A stretch of DNA of 20,221 nucleotides, from positions 1 to 20,221 of IMG/VR virus record IMGVR_UViG_3300032093_001059, one strand, 5' to 3'. Both the position numbers and the translations under genes were made by a program. Origin of the DNA: a virus. Position 1 is the stretch's first letter. Every line of letters begins with the position of its first letter. Shown in pieces: positions 3,041 to 20,221 of this stretch. The notes under the pieces are model-generated. The model saw only the letters and a list, made by a program, of their open reading frames with translations, was not told the DNA's origin and did no database searches.

Positions 3041-3100
3041 AAGTAGCCACTGGAAGGCACTGGCGACCCGATTTTAATTATCCAAACTAGCCCATGAGTG
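3041..3100. other. Convergent intergenic gap without a visible terminator
   Basis: Sixty bases separate the rightward head-protein gene from the 3' end of the leftward tRNA-Ser. I looked for a GC-rich hairpin followed by a T-run in either direction and saw none; there is only a short direct repeat of CACTGG. Termination of the two converging transcripts is therefore unexplained. Confidence 0.4.
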
Positions 3101-3184
3101 CAGAGGGTGAGAGATTCGAACTCTCGAAACAAAACGTTTTTCGCCTTAGCAGTGCGACGGTTTAAGCCACTCACCCAACCCTCT
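3101..3184 (-). tRNA. tRNA-Ser(GCU)
   Basis: An 84-base class II tRNA on the minus strand. The acceptor stem pairs AGAGGGT with ACCCTCT (7 bp), the T-arm is GAGAG-TTCGAAT-CTCTC, the D-stem is GGT/ACC around the typical GAGTGGCTTAA loop, and the anticodon loop is CTGCTAA with anticodon GCT (reads AGC/AGU). A variable region of about 15 bases fits serine tRNAs. The anticodon stem has one A-G mismatch next to the loop. CCA is not encoded; the discriminator base is G, as in serine tRNAs. It lies 12 bases after the small membrane-protein gene at 3197-3358, so it probably is processed from the end of that leftward transcript. Confidence 0.9.
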
Positions 3185-3196
3185 TTTGTTTTACAA

Positions 3197-3358
3197 TTAT
3201 ACTCGTTTATTTCTGCTAAACACAATAGTTCCAACAACTGCACCAAAGGCAAATCCTACACCTAACATCGGTGTATCGCCTCTGAATAAAATCCATGTAA
3301 CTTGGACAATCACTGCTACATACACAATCCATAATGCTGTCTTGACCGCTTTGTTCAT
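3197..3358 (-). CDS. Small two-helix membrane protein (53 aa)
   Basis: A 53-codon frame read on the minus strand from the ATG at 3358 to TAA at 3197-3199. The product has two clear hydrophobic segments, about residues 8-25 (ALWIVYVAVIVQVTWILF) and about 31-47 (MLGVGFAFGAVVGTIVF, glycine-rich), joined by RGDTP and ending in the basic tail SRNKRV. The topology would be two transmembrane helices with positive ends. Its ATG lies one base after the stop of the upstream 62-aa gene, which supports translation in the same operon. The plus-strand frame across the same bases lacks such features. Function unknown; small phage membrane proteins include holins and exclusion proteins, but no family is recognised. 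Confidence 0.72.
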   Translation of the reverse strand: MNKAVKTALWIVYVAVIVQVTWILFRGDTPMLGVGFAFGAVVGTIVFSRNKRV

Positions 3359-4502: not shown

Positions 4503-5696
4503 TCAATAAAGATGCAAAACATCCGTTGTCGGGTGTGTTGACTTTGGTCTGTAAAGATGAAATAGGTAAACCCCGTCTGCTATGCCTATTCTGGCTCTAA
4601 CTGCCATTGCTTTCTTGCTGAAAGAGTAATCAAAAAATTCATTTGCCTTGTTAACTATGCCTCCTTCATCAATTCCTCCTATTGCCAACCAAAGCCTTTT
4701 ACTGAAAAGCATCATTACCCCAGCTATATTTCCAGTGTAGTCACACACATGACTGCCGTGTTTAGCAATCAACTCCTCAGCAATAGCAATATGATTAACC
4801 ATGTTCATGTCGTCTGAGAGAGTTTTATTGTATAGCTGTCTTTCAAGGCCACATCTATTGGTAATACACCCTACTAAATCATAATCACCTCGAGAGGCTA
4901 TATCTTCGCACTGGCGTATGAACTGTTTATGTAGAGGTGGAACTGTGTCTATATCCCTTAAACAAATCCAATCATCATCATTGAGTCTCGAGACTAGATC
5001 GTTTATAGCTCTTCCGATATTCTTGTCTCCTCTAGCTGGAGTAATGTGGTGTACCGCTGGCTTTTGTTTGAACTGGCTAGAGATTAAATGAGGCTTATCA
5101 ATAGCAAAATACTTCTGTGCCTGACTAACCTCAACAGCTCCCCCCAGAACCGTATTCCTGACCTCCATAATAGCCGAGAGGGCCATCTGATCAGTGTTTG
5201 CAAACATCTCGATGTGATTCCACCAAAGCTCATGAAGCTCGTTTGATTCTTTGTTGTGCTCCCGAACAAAGAAGCTGTTTTGGTAAATAGGAACTGAACC
5301 CTTGATGTGACTCATTTTGTAAAAGTTAGCCTGTCTTGAGAGAACTGCTGGGTCTGCCTTTCTCAGGGTGATCAGTTCGTCTATTAAATGATAAATACCT
5401 CTCGAAGAGCCTCGGAAACATCTTACAGGGTGACTTGGCGGTTCCTCGATCAACTTCACGTTTCCATCTATGTAGCATACTAACTCATAATCTGGAAGAT
5501 AAATGTGGCTGTTTATTTTATACCGTCTGGACGCCTTTTGTGGATCAGGGTCTTTAGGCACTTGCTTTACTATCCAGCCTTTTGAATCAGCTGGGATGAT
5601 GTCGGTGAATAAAAAACAATCCCAACCCTCAAACATGGGGGCTGGGATTATCTCGTCATATCCACCGATTATAACCGTGAATATCGCTTTACGCAT
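4503..5696 (-). CDS. Two-domain glycosyltransferase-like protein (397 aa)
   Basis: The N-terminal half (about 1-205) resembles the DUF616/TOD1-MUCI70 glycosyltransferase-like domain: FTVIIGGYDE (6-15), WDCFLFTD (25-32), RRYKINSHIYLPDYE (57-71) and CYIDGN (74-79), the place of a DxD-type site, then NSFFVREHN (140-148) and TDQMALSA (168-175). The C-terminal half (about 213-397) looks like a GT-A family 2-type domain: DDDWICLRDIDT (240-251) with the DID metal-binding motif, AGVMMLFSKRLW (325-336), then GGIDEG (340-345) and LFHLYRPK (378-385). Predicted role: transfer of sugars from nucleotide donors; the acceptor (host surface, DNA or virion protein) is unknown. The start overlaps the upstream gene by eight bases. 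Domain assignments rest on motifs. Confidence 0.72.
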   Translation of the reverse strand: MRKAIFTVIIGGYDEIIPAPMFEGWDCFLFTDIIPADSKGWIVKQVPKDPDPQKASRRYKINSHIYLPDYELVCYIDGNVKLIEEPPSHPVRCFRGSSRGIYHLIDELITLRKADPAVLSRQANFYKMSHIKGSVPIYQNSFFVREHNKESNELHELWWNHIEMFANTDQMALSAIMEVRNTVLGGAVEVSQAQKYFAIDKPHLISSQFKQKPAVHHITPARGDKNIGRAINDLVSRLNDDDWICLRDIDTVPPLHKQFIRQCEDIASRGDYDLVGCITNRCGLERQLYNKTLSDDMNMVNHIAIAEELIAKHGSHVCDYTGNIAGVMMLFSKRLWLAIGGIDEGGIVNKANEFFDYSFSKKAMAVRARIGIADGVYLFHLYRPKSTHPTTDVLHLY

Positions 5697-9021: not shown

Positions 9022-9647
9022 GTTTCTTCTGCGTAGTAGTTTGTATTTAACCGCTCGGTTGGATAGCCAAATAGACACTCTTCGTATCTGGCAACCATTG
9101 ACGGAAAGCGTTCAGTCAGGTACTTGTTGATTTGCAGGTTCACTACCCTTGGCTTCACTTTTTCGGTATCGAACCAGTAAAATGATCCAGAGTAATGAAA
9201 CGGCTCTGGCACAAACGGGGGACACGGCAAAATCTTACCACAAACCCCAGAGAACAGCTTACCACTCATATCTGGAACCTTGGTCAAATTGGAATTGTAT
9301 AGCTTGTTTATCCACATGTCTAACCCATTCAACCTTGGCCTTGTAACACCTTTGCAGTGGGCATAAAATGTAATGCCTCCATTTACCAAGTTCAACGATT
9401 CTAGAAAGTGTATAGCCTCCCCGTTCTGGGGGTCATTCTTAACTATCTGGTACTTGCATCCATCTGGAAGTAGATTAACAATATCGTCAGTTGAATAATC
9501 TGAATCTACAGCAATCTTAACGACCCGATCACCGTCAAAAACATTCCAGAAGTTTCGAAGAAATTCAAGGTTGAGCATGTGATAATAGTTAAGGCTTCCG
9601 TTGAAGTAAATGAAGTAGATCAGATTCTTCTTAACATCATTGCCCAT
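9006..9647 (-). CDS. Putative glycosyltransferase (213 aa)
   Basis: 213 residues with IYFIYFNGS near the N-terminus, GITFYAHCKGVTRPR (about 90-104), WINKLYNSNL (about 112-121) and HYSGSFYWFDT (about 151-161). A 'Y-x-H-x-K-G' segment followed by 'h-x-G-[ns]-F-x-W' is a recurring signature of glycosyltransferase-like proteins in capsule and phage loci. A clear DxD is not obvious; D48-S-D50 (VDSDYS) is the nearest candidate. Start overlaps the methyltransferase end by 28 bases and its end overlaps the helicase start by 16, so it is deeply embedded in the replication operon. Substrate unknown. Confidence 0.55.
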   Translation of the reverse strand: MGNDVKKNLIYFIYFNGSLNYYHMLNLEFLRNFWNVFDGDRVVKIAVDSDYSTDDIVNLLPDGCKYQIVKNDPQNGEAIHFLESLNLVNGGITFYAHCKGVTRPRLNGLDMWINKLYNSNLTKVPDMSGKLFSGVCGKILPCPPFVPEPFHYSGSFYWFDTEKVKPRVVNLQINKYLTERFPSMVARYEECLFGYPTERLNTNYYAEETWRRL

Positions 9648-10153
9648 AAAGTAGGGGTTTTTGGTCTGTCGATTACCTCAAATCCAAGCTCTCTCCAGAA
9701 CTCGCTCCACTCGTACTCCTGTTTGATGTTGATGTGTCCCCAGCGCTCATCGTTATCAGTGGTATGAGGCGTTGAGGAGAAGAGGATGAGCTTTGGATTG
9801 ATCTTACTTACAGCAACGGCTATTTCCCCGTTGGTCATGTGTTCGGCCACCTCAATGAACAGCATCAGCTCTGCGATCGTCGGCTTGGCTACAACGGTCA
9901 AATCTGGGTAGTTGCTTTTGCAATAATCCCGATGAGGCTTGAAGATGTCTTGCGCCACGATATTGTAGCCTTTTTGCCTAGCTACTTCTGAATAAACCCC
10001 AGTTCCGCACCCGAAGTCGATCACTGACTCTGGGGCGTACTGAGAAATATATTCGGCCACACTTTCTGCTAGAGCTACAAACTCAGCGTTGCTCATTGTT
10101 AGGTTGAGGATTTCCAGCTCTGCTTTTAAAAACTGATCTTGACTAATTTTCAT
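9620..10153 (-). CDS. SAM-dependent methyltransferase, class I (177 aa)
   Basis: Rossmann-type methyltransferase: motif I VIDFGCGTG (44-52) binds SAM, acidic end of the second strand at AQDI (67-70), and FIEVAEHM (99-106) is the post-motif IV segment typical of the Methyltransf_11/23 small-molecule type. No DNA-methylase catalytic motif (NPPY/DPPY or PC) is seen, so a DNA adenine or cytosine methylase is unlikely; a sugar, lipid or small metabolite is more probable. It overlaps the glycosyltransferase-like gene by 28 bases, suggesting the two act on one product, such as a methylated glycan. Starts 11 bases after the primase gene. Confidence 0.82.
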   Translation of the reverse strand: MKISQDQFLKAELEILNLTMSNAEFVALAESVAEYISQYAPESVIDFGCGTGVYSEVARQKGYNIVAQDIFKPHRDYCKSNYPDLTVVAKPTIAELMLFIEVAEHMTNGEIAVAVSKINPKLILFSSTPHTTDNDERWGHINIKQEYEWSEFWRELGFEVIDRPKTPTLWAMMLRRI

Positions 10154-15606: not shown

Positions 15607-15637
15607 TTTCCTTTATAGTCTTGAAGTGCTATATTTC
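15607..15637 (+). promoter_or_regulatory. Probable promoter of the small terminase gene
   Basis: TTTC (15607-15610), 19 bases, TATATTTC (15630-15637): spacing and bases match the Bacteroidota -33/-7 promoter (TTTG/TAnnTTTG) except that the final G of both boxes is C. A transcript from here would begin close to the ATG at 15659. The nearest GCAAC box ends nine bases upstream of the -33 box. Confidence 0.45.
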
Positions 15638-15658
15638 GAAAAACTAAATGCTGATAAT

Positions 15659-16090
15659 ATGAGAGCAGACGGATCAAGACCAAACGAAGGAAGGCCAAGA
15701 GCTTTTAAAAGTCCAGAGGATTTATGGGATGCCTTCTGTAAATATGAAAATTGGGTAGAGTCAAACCCCATTTTGGTTCATGACTTTGTAGGAAAGGACG
15801 GATCGGAGGTTTATAGGAGAAGACAGAGACCATTGGTATTGGAGGGTTTTCAGAGCTGGTTGGTTGATAACGGGTATATTGGGTTTCCTGATATTGATCC
15901 TTATTTGGATGGGACTTATCCCGAGTTTTCCGCTATCTCTCGCGCTATTAAGGGTAAAATACGCCAAGAGCAGATCACTGGAGGCATGGCTGGTATCTAC
16001 AACCCGAGCATCACGGCTAGGCTAAATGGACTCACTGAGAAGCAGGAACTCAAGTTTGTAGAGCAACCTCTGTTCGGTAACGACGAGTAG
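15659..16090 (+). CDS. terS: Terminase small subunit, P22 gp3-like
   Basis: The small subunit recognises the packaging site and regulates the large subunit. 143 residues from the ATG at 15659; an upstream GTG at 15626 would lie within the presumed promoter. GRPRAFKSPEDLWDAFCKY followed by WVESNPI closely parallels the N-terminus of P22 gp3 (FESPEALW...EWVEANP), and the central PLVLEGFQSWLV (the gp3 'MTITGLTLF' position), KGKIRQEQITGGMAGIYNPSI and ITARLNGLTEKQE follow the gp3-type layout. The end is acidic. It stands alone between the repeat array and a terminator, separated from the large subunit by about 2.9 kb holding an opposite-strand cassette. Confidence 0.85.
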   Translation: MRADGSRPNEGRPRAFKSPEDLWDAFCKYENWVESNPILVHDFVGKDGSEVYRRRQRPLVLEGFQSWLVDNGYIGFPDIDPYLDGTYPEFSAISRAIKGKIRQEQITGGMAGIYNPSITARLNGLTEKQELKFVEQPLFGNDE

Positions 16091-16168: not shown

Positions 16169-16255
16169 TACACTATCCTATTTTAATCCAAAAAAATACT
16201 ACGGGGGGTATGCCTACAAAAAGTGCCACTTTAGCCTCCTAGGCCCTTAATTCAA

Positions 16256-16299
16256 CTTATCGAATAGATTAGTTTAACTTGTCTAATAGATTAGTTCAA
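16256..16299. repeat. Tandem 22-bp direct repeat
   Basis: Two adjacent 22-base units (16256-16277 and 16278-16299) share AATAGATTAGTT and differ at three positions; the sequence just before (ending TTAATTCAA at 16255) resembles the end of a further, decayed unit. They lie between terS and the rightward terminator, outside any gene. Function unknown; a protein-binding site is the simplest guess. Confidence 0.6.
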
Positions 16300-16438: not shown

Positions 16439-16461
16439 AAAGGGCTAAAAAATAGCCCTTT
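16439..16461 (-). terminator. Second leftward terminator hairpin of the cassette
   Basis: AAAGGGCTA (16439-16447) and TAGCCCTTT (16453-16461) form a perfect 9-bp stem around five bases. On the minus strand the 3' arm runs into TTT then TT before AGCGC, giving a short T-run. It backs up the terminator at 16483-16507. Confidence 0.6.
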
Positions 16462-16482
16462 GGTTATTGGAAAGAAAGCAAT

Positions 16483-16507
16483 AAAAAAGGGCCTAATTAA
16501 GGCCCTT
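16483..16507 (-). terminator. First leftward intrinsic terminator of the cassette
   Basis: On the minus strand AAGGGCC pairs with GGCCCTT (16501-16507 with 16487-16493; 7-base loop) and the stem runs directly into TTTTTAT (down to 16481). It lies 24 bases after the stop of the glutamine amidotransferase gene, so it cleanly ends that leftward unit. Confidence 0.8.
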
Positions 16508-16530
16508 GAAAGTTTGAATTAAAACAAGTT

Positions 16531-17274
16531 TTAAAGCTCGTTTTCTATCCAGTCTTTACACTCTTTACAAAGGTATGCTTGGAAAGAGTTATTGAATGAA
16601 GTTAGGCCGTAACCATCGCACCCACTGCAAATCGAATAAACTTCACTTTCATTTTCAGCTTTTGGGACTTTGCACCCTTTGGAGGCTTTTGGAGCTTTCC
16701 AGCTTTCCCAATAATCGCCGTAAGAGTAAGCGCCGTAACTATAGGAATTATTCGAATACCAGTTGCCATCGCTTTCCCATATACCTAACCTTTCATTTAT
16801 AATTGAAAATTGCCCTTGGTTATTTAGAAAAACGAGTTTTGAATACCCTATACGGTCAGAAATAAGGCTTTGGATTGCATTATTAGAAAGCAGGTCATTT
16901 TCTGAAATATGCTTCAAATAAACTCTATTAAAGTGCCGTGTGTCGTTTTCCAGTGCGTTACCTAGGCCCGAAATAATGCCGTTGTGCATGAATACTAGGT
17001 TTTCGGACACGTGGAAAGGATGCGTATTTGATAGGTCTATTTTTCCACTTGTCGAAATACGGAAATGGAGTAGAATAGGGCTCTCCGTATTTTCAAAGCG
17101 CTTTAAATACTTTTTATACAGGGCCTTTGAATCCGTGGAAAGGGACTTAAACAGCTTTATTTTTCCGTTTTCAATCCATGCCATACCAAAGCCGTCAGAA
17201 TTATTGGATAGGCTGTTTTGAAAGTAAGTCTTTGAGACTGGATTAGAGTTTTGGTTAAGAATTGCAATACACAT
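16531..17274 (-). CDS. Class II glutamine amidotransferase-like protein with zinc ribbon
   Basis: 247 residues of the Ntn-hydrolase GATase class II type, which release ammonia from glutamine with the N-terminal cysteine (or hydrolyse gamma-glutamyl amides). The sequence starts MC, so removal of Met exposes the nucleophile C2. Further family landmarks are NSDGFGMAW (25-33), LLHFRISTSG (68-77; conserved R72), THPF (84-87) and MHNGII (96-101; N98-G99 oxyanion region). A tyrosine/serine-rich linker (about 172-190) leads to a C-terminal zinc-ribbon-like CSGC (216-219) and CKEC (236-239). It follows the amidoligase by 28 bases, in the same transcript, so it probably feeds or opposes that ligase. 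No synthase domain is attached. An alternative is a stand-alone gamma-glutamyl amidohydrolase. Confidence 0.82.
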   Translation of the reverse strand: MCIAILNQNSNPVSKTYFQNSLSNNSDGFGMAWIENGKIKLFKSLSTDSKALYKKYLKRFENTESPILLHFRISTSGKIDLSNTHPFHVSENLVFMHNGIISGLGNALENDTRHFNRVYLKHISENDLLSNNAIQSLISDRIGYSKLVFLNNQGQFSIINERLGIWESDGNWYSNNSYSYGAYSYGDYWESWKAPKASKGCKVPKAENESEVYSICSGCDGYGLTSFNNSFQAYLCKECKDWIENEL

Positions 17275-17302
17275 TTTTTTTTAAGTTTATAGTTTTGGAT
17301 AA

Positions 17303-18547
17303 TTATTTTTTAAGTAGGTCGGGTAATGTTAATGCGTTTTCCGTTTCGCTTAGCGCCCTTTCTGAAATAGTTACATTTTCAAGGCTTTGCGAATACTTGG
17401 CTATCAAAAGCACTTTCTGTAATAGTTTTTCATAACTGAAAACCTTGGATAAATGCAAGTGTAAAGGGTGGTTAAAATCCGCAATCCAATTAATAACCTG
17501 TAAAGGACTTTTGGTTTTATGCAGGTCTATGATTTGGATTAATTCAAGTCTCCAAAGCAGGTTTTCAATATTCTTAACAGCTGGAAATATCCTAAACTCA
17601 ATACAATGCCTTTTCAAATTAACACTTTGGTATTTTTCCCCGTCCCTTATCAAATCTTTGGTGCTTTTGGCCTTACTCCAGCGTGAATTAATTCTATGCT
17701 CATAAATAGAATAAAGCAGTGGTAAATAGCCCTTTATGTTTTCCAACAAATTAGCGCTTGAATAGTCAGGGTGCGAATAGTTAATGTGACCACCGCAATT
17801 GCTTGAATAATCCGCGTTTATAAGCTCTTTCAATCGGCCAAATTCATTTCTGAAATAATCCTTTGATTCATGCAGGGAAAAAACAGGGCTAACCAGTTCA
17901 AAACCTGTAGTTGCGCATAAACTACCATCATTTTCCTTTCCCCATCCTGTTTCACTTTGTAATTCATGCGCATAAACACTCTGTTTGGCGTCCAAATCTT
18001 CTTTCTCTATTTCAAATCCAATCTTCGCGCCTTCTATAGTGCATTTGAATGCTGGATTTGAACCGTGATAACTGAAATTATATTCGGGTTCAGCCTCTTT
18101 GTGGTATTCGCCGTCACTTTCCCAGTAGTATAAATAGCTTCTATCAAAGTATTCGCCGTCGATATAAGTCACTGTATAGCCACCAATATTTGCTTCGCCA
18201 TCACTCATTATTTCGTCACAGTAATAAGAGCAAAAGCGACGGCCATAAGGGCCGAAACTTTCTATTTCATAATTATTGCCATTAAACCAGCGGGCCGATG
18301 TATCGCAATAAATAGCGCTTGAAATATGAATGCTTTCGTCTTCATAGGTAATTATTAAATCGTCTTCATGATAAATGCACCCATCATTATCGCACCTAAA
18401 CAGGCCGAATTTTGAAAGGTTGGTATTTTCAGCGTGATAATTAGAAATGCCTAACGTTTCAGCCTCAGAAAGTATTTCTTTCAGGTCTTGGCCTTTGAAT
18501 AGGGCAATTTCAGCCAGTAAATCGAGTGTGTGTTGGTCAAACTGCAT
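17303..18547 (-). CDS. Amidoligase (Amidoligase_2, COOH-NH2 ligase) with zinc-finger-like N-terminus
   Basis: 414 residues. Residues about 170-400 carry the Amidoligase_2 signature of glutamate-cysteine-ligase-like COOH-NH2 ligases: GFEIEKED (177-184), ENDGSL (205-210), GFELVSP (215-221), CGGHINYS (251-258), R285 and HCIEFRIFP (314-322), which supply the metal and ATP sites. Such enzymes join a carboxylate to an amine using ATP. The first 115 residues hold C52-x4-C57, C81 and C106-x3-C110, a zinc-finger-like set. It starts four bases after the small membrane-peptide gene and is followed by the class II amidotransferase. Base composition is visibly more AT-rich than the large terminase gene nearby, suggesting recent acquisition. 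Substrate unknown: host wall, surface or protein modification are options. Confidence 0.82.
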   Translation of the reverse strand: MQFDQHTLDLLAEIALFKGQDLKEILSEAETLGISNYHAENTNLSKFGLFRCDNDGCIYHEDDLIITYEDESIHISSAIYCDTSARWFNGNNYEIESFGPYGRRFCSYYCDEIMSDGEANIGGYTVTYIDGEYFDRSYLYYWESDGEYHKEAEPEYNFSYHGSNPAFKCTIEGAKIGFEIEKEDLDAKQSVYAHELQSETGWGKENDGSLCATTGFELVSPVFSLHESKDYFRNEFGRLKELINADYSSNCGGHINYSHPDYSSANLLENIKGYLPLLYSIYEHRINSRWSKAKSTKDLIRDGEKYQSVNLKRHCIEFRIFPAVKNIENLLWRLELIQIIDLHKTKSPLQVINWIADFNHPLHLHLSKVFSYEKLLQKVLLIAKYSQSLENVTISERALSETENALTLPDLLKK

Positions 18548-18551
18548 AGGA

Positions 18552-18689
18552 TTAGAAAGTTAATAGGTTTGAGAAAATTGAAAATTCACGGCCGATAAGG
18601 ACTAAACCAGTGAATAAAATAGCACTTAGCCCGCTGATAACTACCAGATTTTCAAGGGCTTGCAGGATAATTAATTTTTTAGTTTTCAT
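18552..18689 (-). CDS. Small membrane peptide leading the amidoligase unit (45 aa)
   Basis: A 45-codon frame from ATG 18689 to TAA 18552-18554. It begins with the basic MKTKK, then hydrophobic LIILQALENLVVISGLSAILFTGLVLIG (about residues 6-33), R34-E35, and a second hydrophobic end FSIFSNLLTF. This fits a one- or two-helix inner-membrane peptide. It is the first gene after the promoter at 18712-18741 and lies four bases before the amidoligase ATG, so it is probably translated with it. It could anchor or direct the ligase complex to the membrane; no family is recognised. Confidence 0.62.
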   Translation of the reverse strand: MKTKKLIILQALENLVVISGLSAILFTGLVLIGREFSIFSNLLTF

Positions 18690-18711
18690 AGCTTTTTTTT
18701 TACGCATGCCC

Positions 18712-18741
18712 AAAAATAGAAAAAAGGGTATTCAAAGCAAT
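18712..18741 (-). promoter_or_regulatory. Bacteroidota-type promoter of the amidoligase cassette
   Basis: On the minus strand TTG (18739-18741), 19 bases, TATTTTTG (18712-18719): an exact match to TTG-N19-TAnnTTTG. The transcript would start about 20 bases before the 45-aa peptide ATG. This gives the cassette its own promoter, independent of the late genes around it. Confidence 0.72.
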
Positions 18742-18963: not shown

Positions 18964-20221
18964 ATGTCCCAAGGATTCGTTTACACCACAGCCATCAAGA
19001 AAATGCGTGACTTAGCCAAGACTGGAACCCGTATCAACGTGGTCTGCGGAGGCTCGTCAGCTGGCAAGACCTTTGGCATTCTGCCGATTCTTATCGACAA
19101 GGCAACCAGAGTTCCGAGGAGTGAAATCAGCATTGTGGCAGAGTCCGTTCCGCATCTCCGACGGGGCGCCATGAAGGACTTTGAGAAGATCATGAGGGAG
19201 ACGGGCAGGTGGAGTGATGCGCACTGGAATACCACACTGATGAAGTACAGGTTTGCCAACGGGAGCTATGTGGAGTTTTTCTCGGCCGATGACGACGGCA
19301 AGGTTCGTGGCCCAAGAAGAACCGATCTTTACATCAACGAGTGCAACAATATCAAGTACGACACCTTTTTTCAGCTGAATATCCGAACCAGCGGTAGCGT
19401 CTGGCTGGATTACAACCCAGTGGAGGAGTTCTGGGTAGACGAGAACGTGATGAAGGGCAAGGATGTGGGGTTTGTCAGGCTGACTTACAAGGATAACGAG
19501 GCGTTGCCCCAGAGCATTGTGTCAGTTCTGGAGGAATGTCGGGATAAGGGGTTTTATGATCCGTTTTTGGCAGAGGAAGACCTGTTTGCGGACAAGAACA
19601 TCAAGAATCAGTATTGGGCGAAGTGGTGGAGAGTGTATGGCATGGGCTACCAAGGTTCGCTGGAGGGCGTGATCTTTCAGAACTGGGTTCAAGTGGATGT
19701 TATACCTCCGACGGCTACGCTGATGGGGTACGGGCTGGACTTTGGGTTTGCGAACGATCCGACTTCAATGGTCGGCATGTGGAAGCACGGGAAGGGGTAC
19801 TACTTCAAGGAAGTTCTGTATGAGAAGGGGATGACCAACAGGGATATTGCAACCAGAGTTCGGGATATGGGGATTGACCCGAGTGCGACCATCATCGCTG
19901 ACTCAGCAGAGCCGAAGAGTATCGAGGAGCTGAGGAGATATGGGTTGAAGGGGGTGAGAAAGGCCAGAAAGGGACGGGATTCCATCGTTTCTGGAATTAC
20001 CCTGATGTTGGCTAACCCGATGTTTGTCACTTCGGACTCCGTGAATATGATCAGGGAGCTGAGAAACTACATGTGGGAAGTGGACAAGAACGGGAATGCT
20101 ATCAACAGGCCGAATGCTGGTAATGACCACGCTATTGACGCCTCGAGGTATATTTCGATGGCGAAAATGGGGAAAGTTGGGGGATTTGTAGTAAGTTCGG
20201 GGAAAGTGATATACTCAGATG
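18964..20221 (+). CDS. terL: Terminase large subunit (3' end outside window)
   Basis: The ATP-driven packaging motor and nuclease that cuts concatemeric DNA. 419 codons are visible and the frame is still open at the window edge. ATPase: Walker A GGSSAGKT (29-36), Walker B DLYINE (121-126), and a coupling-type motif LDYNP (148-152). RNase H-like nuclease: GLDFGF (257-262; D259), IADSAEP (311-317; D313) and NDHAIDASRY (387-396; D388), so all three metal-binding acidic residues are present. By length only a short C-terminus should be missing. The frame is closed upstream at 18907, and ATG 18964 is the only ATG before Walker A in this frame that gives the usual N-terminus. It starts without a Shine-Dalgarno sequence. 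Confidence 0.93.
   Translation, partial: MSQGFVYTTAIKKMRDLAKTGTRINVVCGGSSAGKTFGILPILIDKATRVPRSEISIVAESVPHLRRGAMKDFEKIMRETGRWSDAHWNTTLMKYRFANGSYVEFFSADDDGKVRGPRRTDLYINECNNIKYDTFFQLNIRTSGSVWLDYNPVEEFWVDENVMKGKDVGFVRLTYKDNEALPQSIVSVLEECRDKGFYDPFLAEEDLFADKNIKNQYWAKWWRVYGMGYQGSLEGVIFQNWVQVDVIPPTATLMGYGLDFGFANDPTSMVGMWKHGKGYYFKEVLYEKGMTNRDIATRVRDMGIDPSATIIADSAEPKSIEELRRYGLKGVRKARKGRDSIVSGITLMLANPMFVTSDSVNMIRELRNYMWEVDKNGNAINRPNAGNDHAIDASRYISMAKMGKVGGFVVSSGKVIYSD

Follow-up and report, generated by a model that had tools for sequence, protein, structure and literature searches.

The window analysed here, a linear IMG/VR fragment of 20,221 bp, carries three minus-strand open reading frames between the plus-strand genes for the small (terS) and large (terL) terminase subunits. 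They encode a membrane micropeptide, an amidoligase and a class II glutamine amidotransferase (GATase), and as judged by sequence comparison they are a genuine, probably horizontally acquired and reduced variant of a known phage cassette. Our preferred reading, to which we give a probability of roughly 45%, is that the cassette both makes and trims amides of the gamma-glutamyl type close to the inner membrane, with cell-wall precursors as a plausible substrate. The sequences show the enzyme families, their intact active sites and near-universal pairing, the insertion between the terminase genes and the recurrent micropeptide; the gamma-glutamyl chemistry, recruitment to the membrane, the target and the benefit we infer. 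The amidoligase-GATase pair spans phages of mycobacteria, proteobacteria and Bacteroidota, and in the papers searched its function is predicted only. The new observations are a tiny membrane peptide recurring upstream of the amidoligase and three phages with a GATase-GGACT fusion; the former suggests the place (the membrane), and the latter suggests the bond (a gamma-glutamyl amide). The window cassette is among the smaller self-contained versions, with its own terminators and an empty site in relatives, and should thus lend itself well to cloning, expression and assay.

Layout of the cassette

The window terL product is closest to those of Flavobacterium phages (52.6% identity) and the primase to that of Nonlabens phage P12024S (40.8%), which makes a member of the Bacteroidota the most likely host. 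From the micropeptide through the last gene the cassette extends over about 2.2 kb. Its order is a membrane peptide of 45-51 aa, the 414-aa amidoligase, the 247-aa GATase, 28 nt from the amidoligase gene, and two terminators. The features are the following.

15626-16090 (+): terminase small subunit, flank (Pfam GP3_package 5.8e-12; phrog_606 4.3e-15)
16247-16290 (no strand): tandem pair of 22-nt direct repeats, 82% similar to each other, intergenic on the terS side
16439-16461 (-): distal hairpin terminator (fold z=-2.85 by itself; z=-4.15 for both hairpins)
16487-16507 (-): proximal hairpin terminator, 8 bp stem and T run (z=-3.17)
16531-17274 (-): class II glutamine amidotransferase, Ntn, 247 aa (Pfam GATase_4 7.9e-11; invariant residues; Foldseek)
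16558-16629 (-): zinc-ribbon-like motif CxxC...CxxC at the GATase C-terminus, aa 216-239 (motif pattern)
17303-18547 (-): amidoligase of the COOH-NH2 ligase/glutamine synthetase (GS) superfamily, 414 aa (profiles, motifs, AF2 model)
17306-18025 (-): amidoligase catalytic domain, aa 175-414 (AF2 pLDDT mostly 80-96; invariant residues)
18552-18707 (-): membrane micropeptide, 51 aa (ATG at 18707) or 45 aa (ATG at 18689) (hydropathy; recurrent position)
18964-20220 (+): terminase large subunit, flank, running off the window (Pfam Terminase_3C 4.9e-14; 52.6% to Flavobacterium phages)

The preliminary description of this DNA had placed the cassette here, against the direction of the terminase genes, and had seen two tandem terminators behind it; both points hold. 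Folded jointly, the two minus-strand hairpins with their T runs score better than 200/200 shuffles (z=-4.15). The same description also named an exact Bacteroidota promoter in front of the cassette. The candidate is TTTG-N14-TATTTTTG, and spacers of Bacteroidota promoters are usually about 19-21 nt. Matches with a spacing of 14-23 were found twice in the window, against 1.26 expected by chance, and the sole promoter-type site with a spacer of 17-23 lies at position 3350, outside the cassette. The promoter was discarded because its 14-nt spacer is wrong and such matches occur at chance level.

A second contig, IMGVR_UViG_3300005528_000451, is identical to the window over 8,916 bp (100% identity) and supplies the rest of terL, followed by tail-like proteins. 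The arrangement is thus no one-off artefact of assembly, although both contigs may come from one phage.

Insertion at the terminase junction

In the window, terS and terL are separated by 2,873 nt, whereas the gap is 3 nt in Flavobacterium phage FpV9 (terL 52.6%) and the two genes overlap by 1 nt in two IMG/VR relatives, L061 (terL 44%) and L063 (38%). Because the terminase genes abut in these phages, we read from the sequences that the cassette is an insertion at this junction, which is cleanly empty in the relatives. The contigs of L061-L063, themselves fragments, yielded no amidoligase. GC3 is 0.36-0.40 in the cassette versus 0.66 in terL and 0.54 in the primase gene. As a separate observation, terL has a GC of 0.51 and a GC3 of 0.66 versus about 0.43-0.45 and 0.43-0.54 in other phage genes, and this composition suggests that terL of the window is itself mosaic.

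No convincing insertion repeats flank the cassette; the direct repeats of 14-24 nt found there resemble terminators or low complexity. The two adjoining imperfect 22-nt repeats at 16247-16290 (TTAATTCAACTTATCGAATAGA) lie inside a 440-nt gap 3' of terS. In a separate contig group (e.g. L005, L025 and L028) the enzyme pair likewise adjoins the terminase genes, divergent from terS. The terL products of L005 and L028, the only two compared, are 32-35% identical to that of the window. The terminase border may be a favoured site for the pair.

The amidoligase

The preliminary description had called the ligase Amidoligase_2-type. Taken alone, the window protein falls below the curated cut-off of that Pfam family (PF12224; E=0.033, 14.5 bits, cut-off 22), but the assignment stands at the level of the aligned family, in which 10/11 sequences match Amidoligase_2 at E<=0.1 (best 2.6e-8), and it agrees with the motifs and the modelled fold. 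The motifs ExE (179/181), DGS (207-209), GFE (215-217), CGxH (251-254) and ExRIF, of the form ExRxF (317-321), are intact, and across 35 sequences there is no variation at ExE, D207, S209, G215, E217, G252, H254, E317, R319 and F321. In the AF2 model the catalytic part has a pLDDT of mostly 80-96 and the N-terminal part mostly <65. Foldseek matched the model to glutamine synthetases, gamma-glutamylmethylamide synthetase, YbdK and Dop. The GS match has an E of 2.4e-5 (about 3e-5 for GS and gamma-glutamylmethylamide synthetase taken together) and a probability of 1.0 with TM-scores of only 0.24-0.30, so that the fold class is supported and not a close superposition. With this match and the conserved motifs, the protein belongs to the COOH-NH2 ligase/glutamine-synthetase-fold superfamily.

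A PDB sequence search with the amidoligase gave nothing, and tblastn of the window and L002 amidoligases in named phages also found nothing; a profile was needed for detection. Homology to E. coli GlnA/PuuA and YbdK by profile comparison was set aside, as the weak alignments cover 17-27 columns only, over the catalytic motifs.

The N-terminal 170 residues of the window amidoligase have no CxxC. The zinc-finger-like N-terminus attributed to it earlier was therefore dropped; it is only some relatives that carry such arrays. Other lineages have 5-11 N-terminal CxxC motifs, with 8-11 in L040, L041, L042, L043, L044, L048 and L053, and these arrays are possibly tandem zinc-binding units. A second amidoligase-domain protein of 826 aa lies near the enzyme pair at L050:8412-10889.

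The amidotransferase

The GATase passes the cut-off of Pfam GATase_4 (E=7.9e-11) and also matches NCBIfam EgtC (2.3e-6). Invariant in 33 homologues are C2, N25, G28, G30, H70, R72, T75, G77, H85, P86, H97, N98, G99 and D111. By comparison with GlmS, this set contains the nucleophilic Cys, the Arg, Thr and Asp that bind glutamine, and the Asn-Gly pair. These residues and the profile match assign the protein to the class II (Ntn) glutamine amidotransferases. Its AF2 model (pLDDT 82.7) matched the GlmS glutaminase domain at 4.6e-8 and EgtC at 6e-5 in Foldseek. EgtC is the Ntn hydrolase of the ergothioneine pathway and takes off a gamma-glutamyl group. The ribbon, which comes after the catalytic domain, has CxxC at 216 and 236, and about 70% of homologues retain any given one of these cysteines. 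The N-terminal cysteine and zinc ribbon described before are thus both present, and the catalytic residues of the two enzymes, which were to be checked in alignments, are invariant (35 amidoligases, 33 GATases).

GlmS glutaminase is the best match of the GATase by sequence and by fold. This match and the shared class II residues favour ammonia-dependent amidation, in which the amidoligase would amidate D-Glu or DAP carboxylates of peptidoglycan precursors and the GATase would do no more than supply ammonia; a glutaminase partnered with an ATP-dependent enzyme for carboxylates fits this as well. Such a system would resemble MurT/GatD or AsnB/LtsA, which are from different families, and PMC3267633 provides MurT/GatD as a precedent. 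The cassette enzymes, however, have no Mur-ligase or channel domain, and together with the fusions and neighbours described below this leaves ammonia-dependent amidation somewhat unlikely.

Pairing in other phages

The GATase lies downstream in 49/51 viral loci with the amidoligase, within 100 nt in 45 and after a longer gap in four; the remaining two (L010 and L017) stop at a contig edge. This bears out the expectation that the genes occur together in related genomes, as far as the two enzymes are concerned. Named phages with the pair are Marvin (gp105/106), MEP401 (gp5/gp6) and MW202733. The amidoligase family profile also matches the annotated amidoligases of C75C1, StenR_269 and RHph_I3_11, and an earlier version of it matched LUZ24 gp18 at 2.6e-5. 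Marvin (a Mycobacterium phage) and MEP401 (a Methylophilales phage) encode this enzyme pair in the gene order of the window and have no GGCT or second ligase. They differ from the window in sequence (20-45% identity) and genome position, and no micropeptide was detected in MEP401. The published literature searched held no tested function for the pair, and a plasmid search for the cassette returned only weak, partial GATase matches. Among genome contigs, four related amidoligases without GATase occur in Hymenobacter/Pontibacter/Balneolales. The related amidoligases of L055, L056, L057 and L059, which have no GATase neighbour, carry a short N-terminus before the catalytic domain, and two lie in Hymenobacter prophage-like regions.

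Many phages have the pair in their early or replication region. This location, and the similarity of the modelled folds to gamma-glutamylmethylamide synthetase and EgtC, would suit small-molecule chemistry, in which gamma-glutamylation or de-glutamylation of a cytosolic amine (a polyamine or amino acid) tunes host metabolism, as in PuuA/PuuD or EgtA/EgtC. We consider this quite unlikely, as the recurrent membrane peptide and the conserved extra zinc-binding parts hint that the partner is a macromolecule. PuuA/PuuD, EgtA/EgtC and MurT/GatD are functional analogues, each an ATP-dependent ligase with a gamma-glutamyl or glutamine hydrolase; they have other sequence families or substrates, and the likeness is one of analogy only.

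A phage 'peptidoglycan modification' cassette has already been described, as a prediction only (LUZ24, PSA-HP1 and others; PMC5498523, PMC11945000), and superinfection exclusion is the published guess for this larger cassette (PMC5498523, PMC11945000, PMC10580990). The peptidoglycan target proposed for the window cassette is taken from this literature, where it is a hypothesis. Like the LUZ24 gp16-22/PSA-HP1/RIO-1/U17 cassette, the window has an amidoligase and a class II GATase in a phage genome, adjacent to each other as they are in LUZ24. Unlike it, the window has a membrane micropeptide, and its cassette sits between terS and terL, not in the early region. LUZ24 has genes for COOH-NH2 ligase, RimK-like and GGCT proteins next to the two genes. 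Neither GGCT nor a second COOH-NH2 ligase was found in the window and the overlapping contig, which are incomplete, by a search that finds both in LUZ24, so that the peptidoglycan reading may not carry over to the window. A RimK (ATP-grasp) model had no match in the window and also misses the annotated RimK-like gene of LUZ24. A PADLOC defence-model search gave no matches, and the anti-defence role suggested in the preliminary description found no evidence.

The membrane micropeptide

The membrane peptide noticed earlier is a hydrophobic reading frame of 45-51 aa (hydropathy maximum 2.43), and similar peptides recur upstream of amidoligases. A hydrophobic peptide of 26-54 aa was found upstream in 8/28 amidoligase clusters versus 5/132 control genes of the same loci (Fisher p=2.4e-4), a statistic limited by the clustering of labels through shared descent, a crude single-pass hydropathy measure and uncertain start sites of the enzymes. 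This count is redundancy-reduced and restricted to peptides whose end falls between -90 and +20 nt relative to the start of the amidoligase, and supersedes a looser one (41/56 vs 87/295). Among AT-rich representatives, 5/10 have the micropeptide versus 4/57 controls, and 2/60 in a further control set. In a tree made by a quick method, the window amidoligase groups with L002, L015, L016, L017 and L018 (SH-aLRT 99); the micropeptide is present in all of this clade but L018, and that of L015 is lipoprotein-like. All lineages with a micropeptide have at most one N-terminal CxxC in the amidoligase. The recurrence, as a pattern across genomes, supports a membrane link of the cassette.

The position directly upstream in several lineages could also point to peptide or protein modification, in which a host protein or, RiPP-like, the micropeptide itself would be the substrate of the enzymes. 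The title of Iyer 2009, the source of the peptidoglycan-modification idea and cited in PMC10580990, reportedly has amidoligases predicted to modify proteins. However, the micropeptides of distant lineages have no evident conserved core and many lineages have none, and we regard this alternative as improbable. A bolder version of our preferred reading holds that the micropeptide recruits, or is a substrate of, a gamma-glutamyl ligase/hydrolase pair, which would be a new membrane-localised envelope amide modification in independent lineages; we think this unlikely.

In L005, L025, L028 and their relatives, one or two membrane peptides of about 33-40 aa lie between the divergent terS and the amidoligase, and they look homologous between groups. 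An example from L024 is MNQFISLGEFILIVLICYPVVIFGKTIVEHIKEK.

Proposed gamma-glutamyl chemistry and function

In three phages that also have the amidoligase, the GATase carries an extra domain of the gamma-glutamylamine cyclotransferase GGACT, which is absent from the window GATase.

L018:7122-8834: GATase-GGACT fusion (GGACT E 2.9e-16)
L073:4001-5218 (MW202828.1): GATase-GGACT fusion (7.5e-18)
L074:4001-4897 (C75C1): GATase-GGACT fusion (2.7e-21)

L018 belongs to the amidoligase clade of the window (SH-aLRT 99). By the fusion argument, a GATase joined to GGACT implies a pathway that handles gamma-glutamyl amides, which strengthens the earlier idea of ligation or removal of an amide or gamma-glutamyl group. 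The fusions and the GGCT neighbours point to gamma-glutamyl-amine products and not to the simple amides expected from ammonia-dependent amidation. With modest confidence, a ligase with a gamma-glutamyl hydrolase or donor is preferred over simple ammonia transfer; the preference is only modest because ammonia-channelling and gamma-glutamyl-cleaving class II GATases share active-site residues.

Our preferred reading would then run as follows. A horizontally acquired accessory operon, the reduced and membrane-peptide-bearing form of the amidoligase/GATase cassette, would supply an amidoligase of GS fold that activates a carboxylate with ATP, most likely of the gamma-glutamyl type, and couples it to an amine. 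The GATase, an Ntn enzyme, would work on the gamma-glutamyl side, freeing ammonia or glutamate from glutamine for the amidoligase, or alternatively trimming the gamma-glutamyl amide that the amidoligase has made. The micropeptide may keep the reaction at the inner membrane, where a lipid-linked cell-wall precursor (the Glu/DAP carboxylate or amine of the stem peptide) or another envelope molecule would be altered during infection. Such an alteration would affect lysis or later phages.

Other features of the window

An Rfam scan gave a tRNA as its sole match, a tRNA-Ser with anticodon gct at 3100-3184 (-). Elsewhere in the window, 4503-5696 (-) encodes a TOD1/MUCI70 glycosyltransferase-like protein (7.9e-5) and 9620-10153 (-) a Methyltransf_23 protein (1.3e-8); both are possible further surface-modifying genes.
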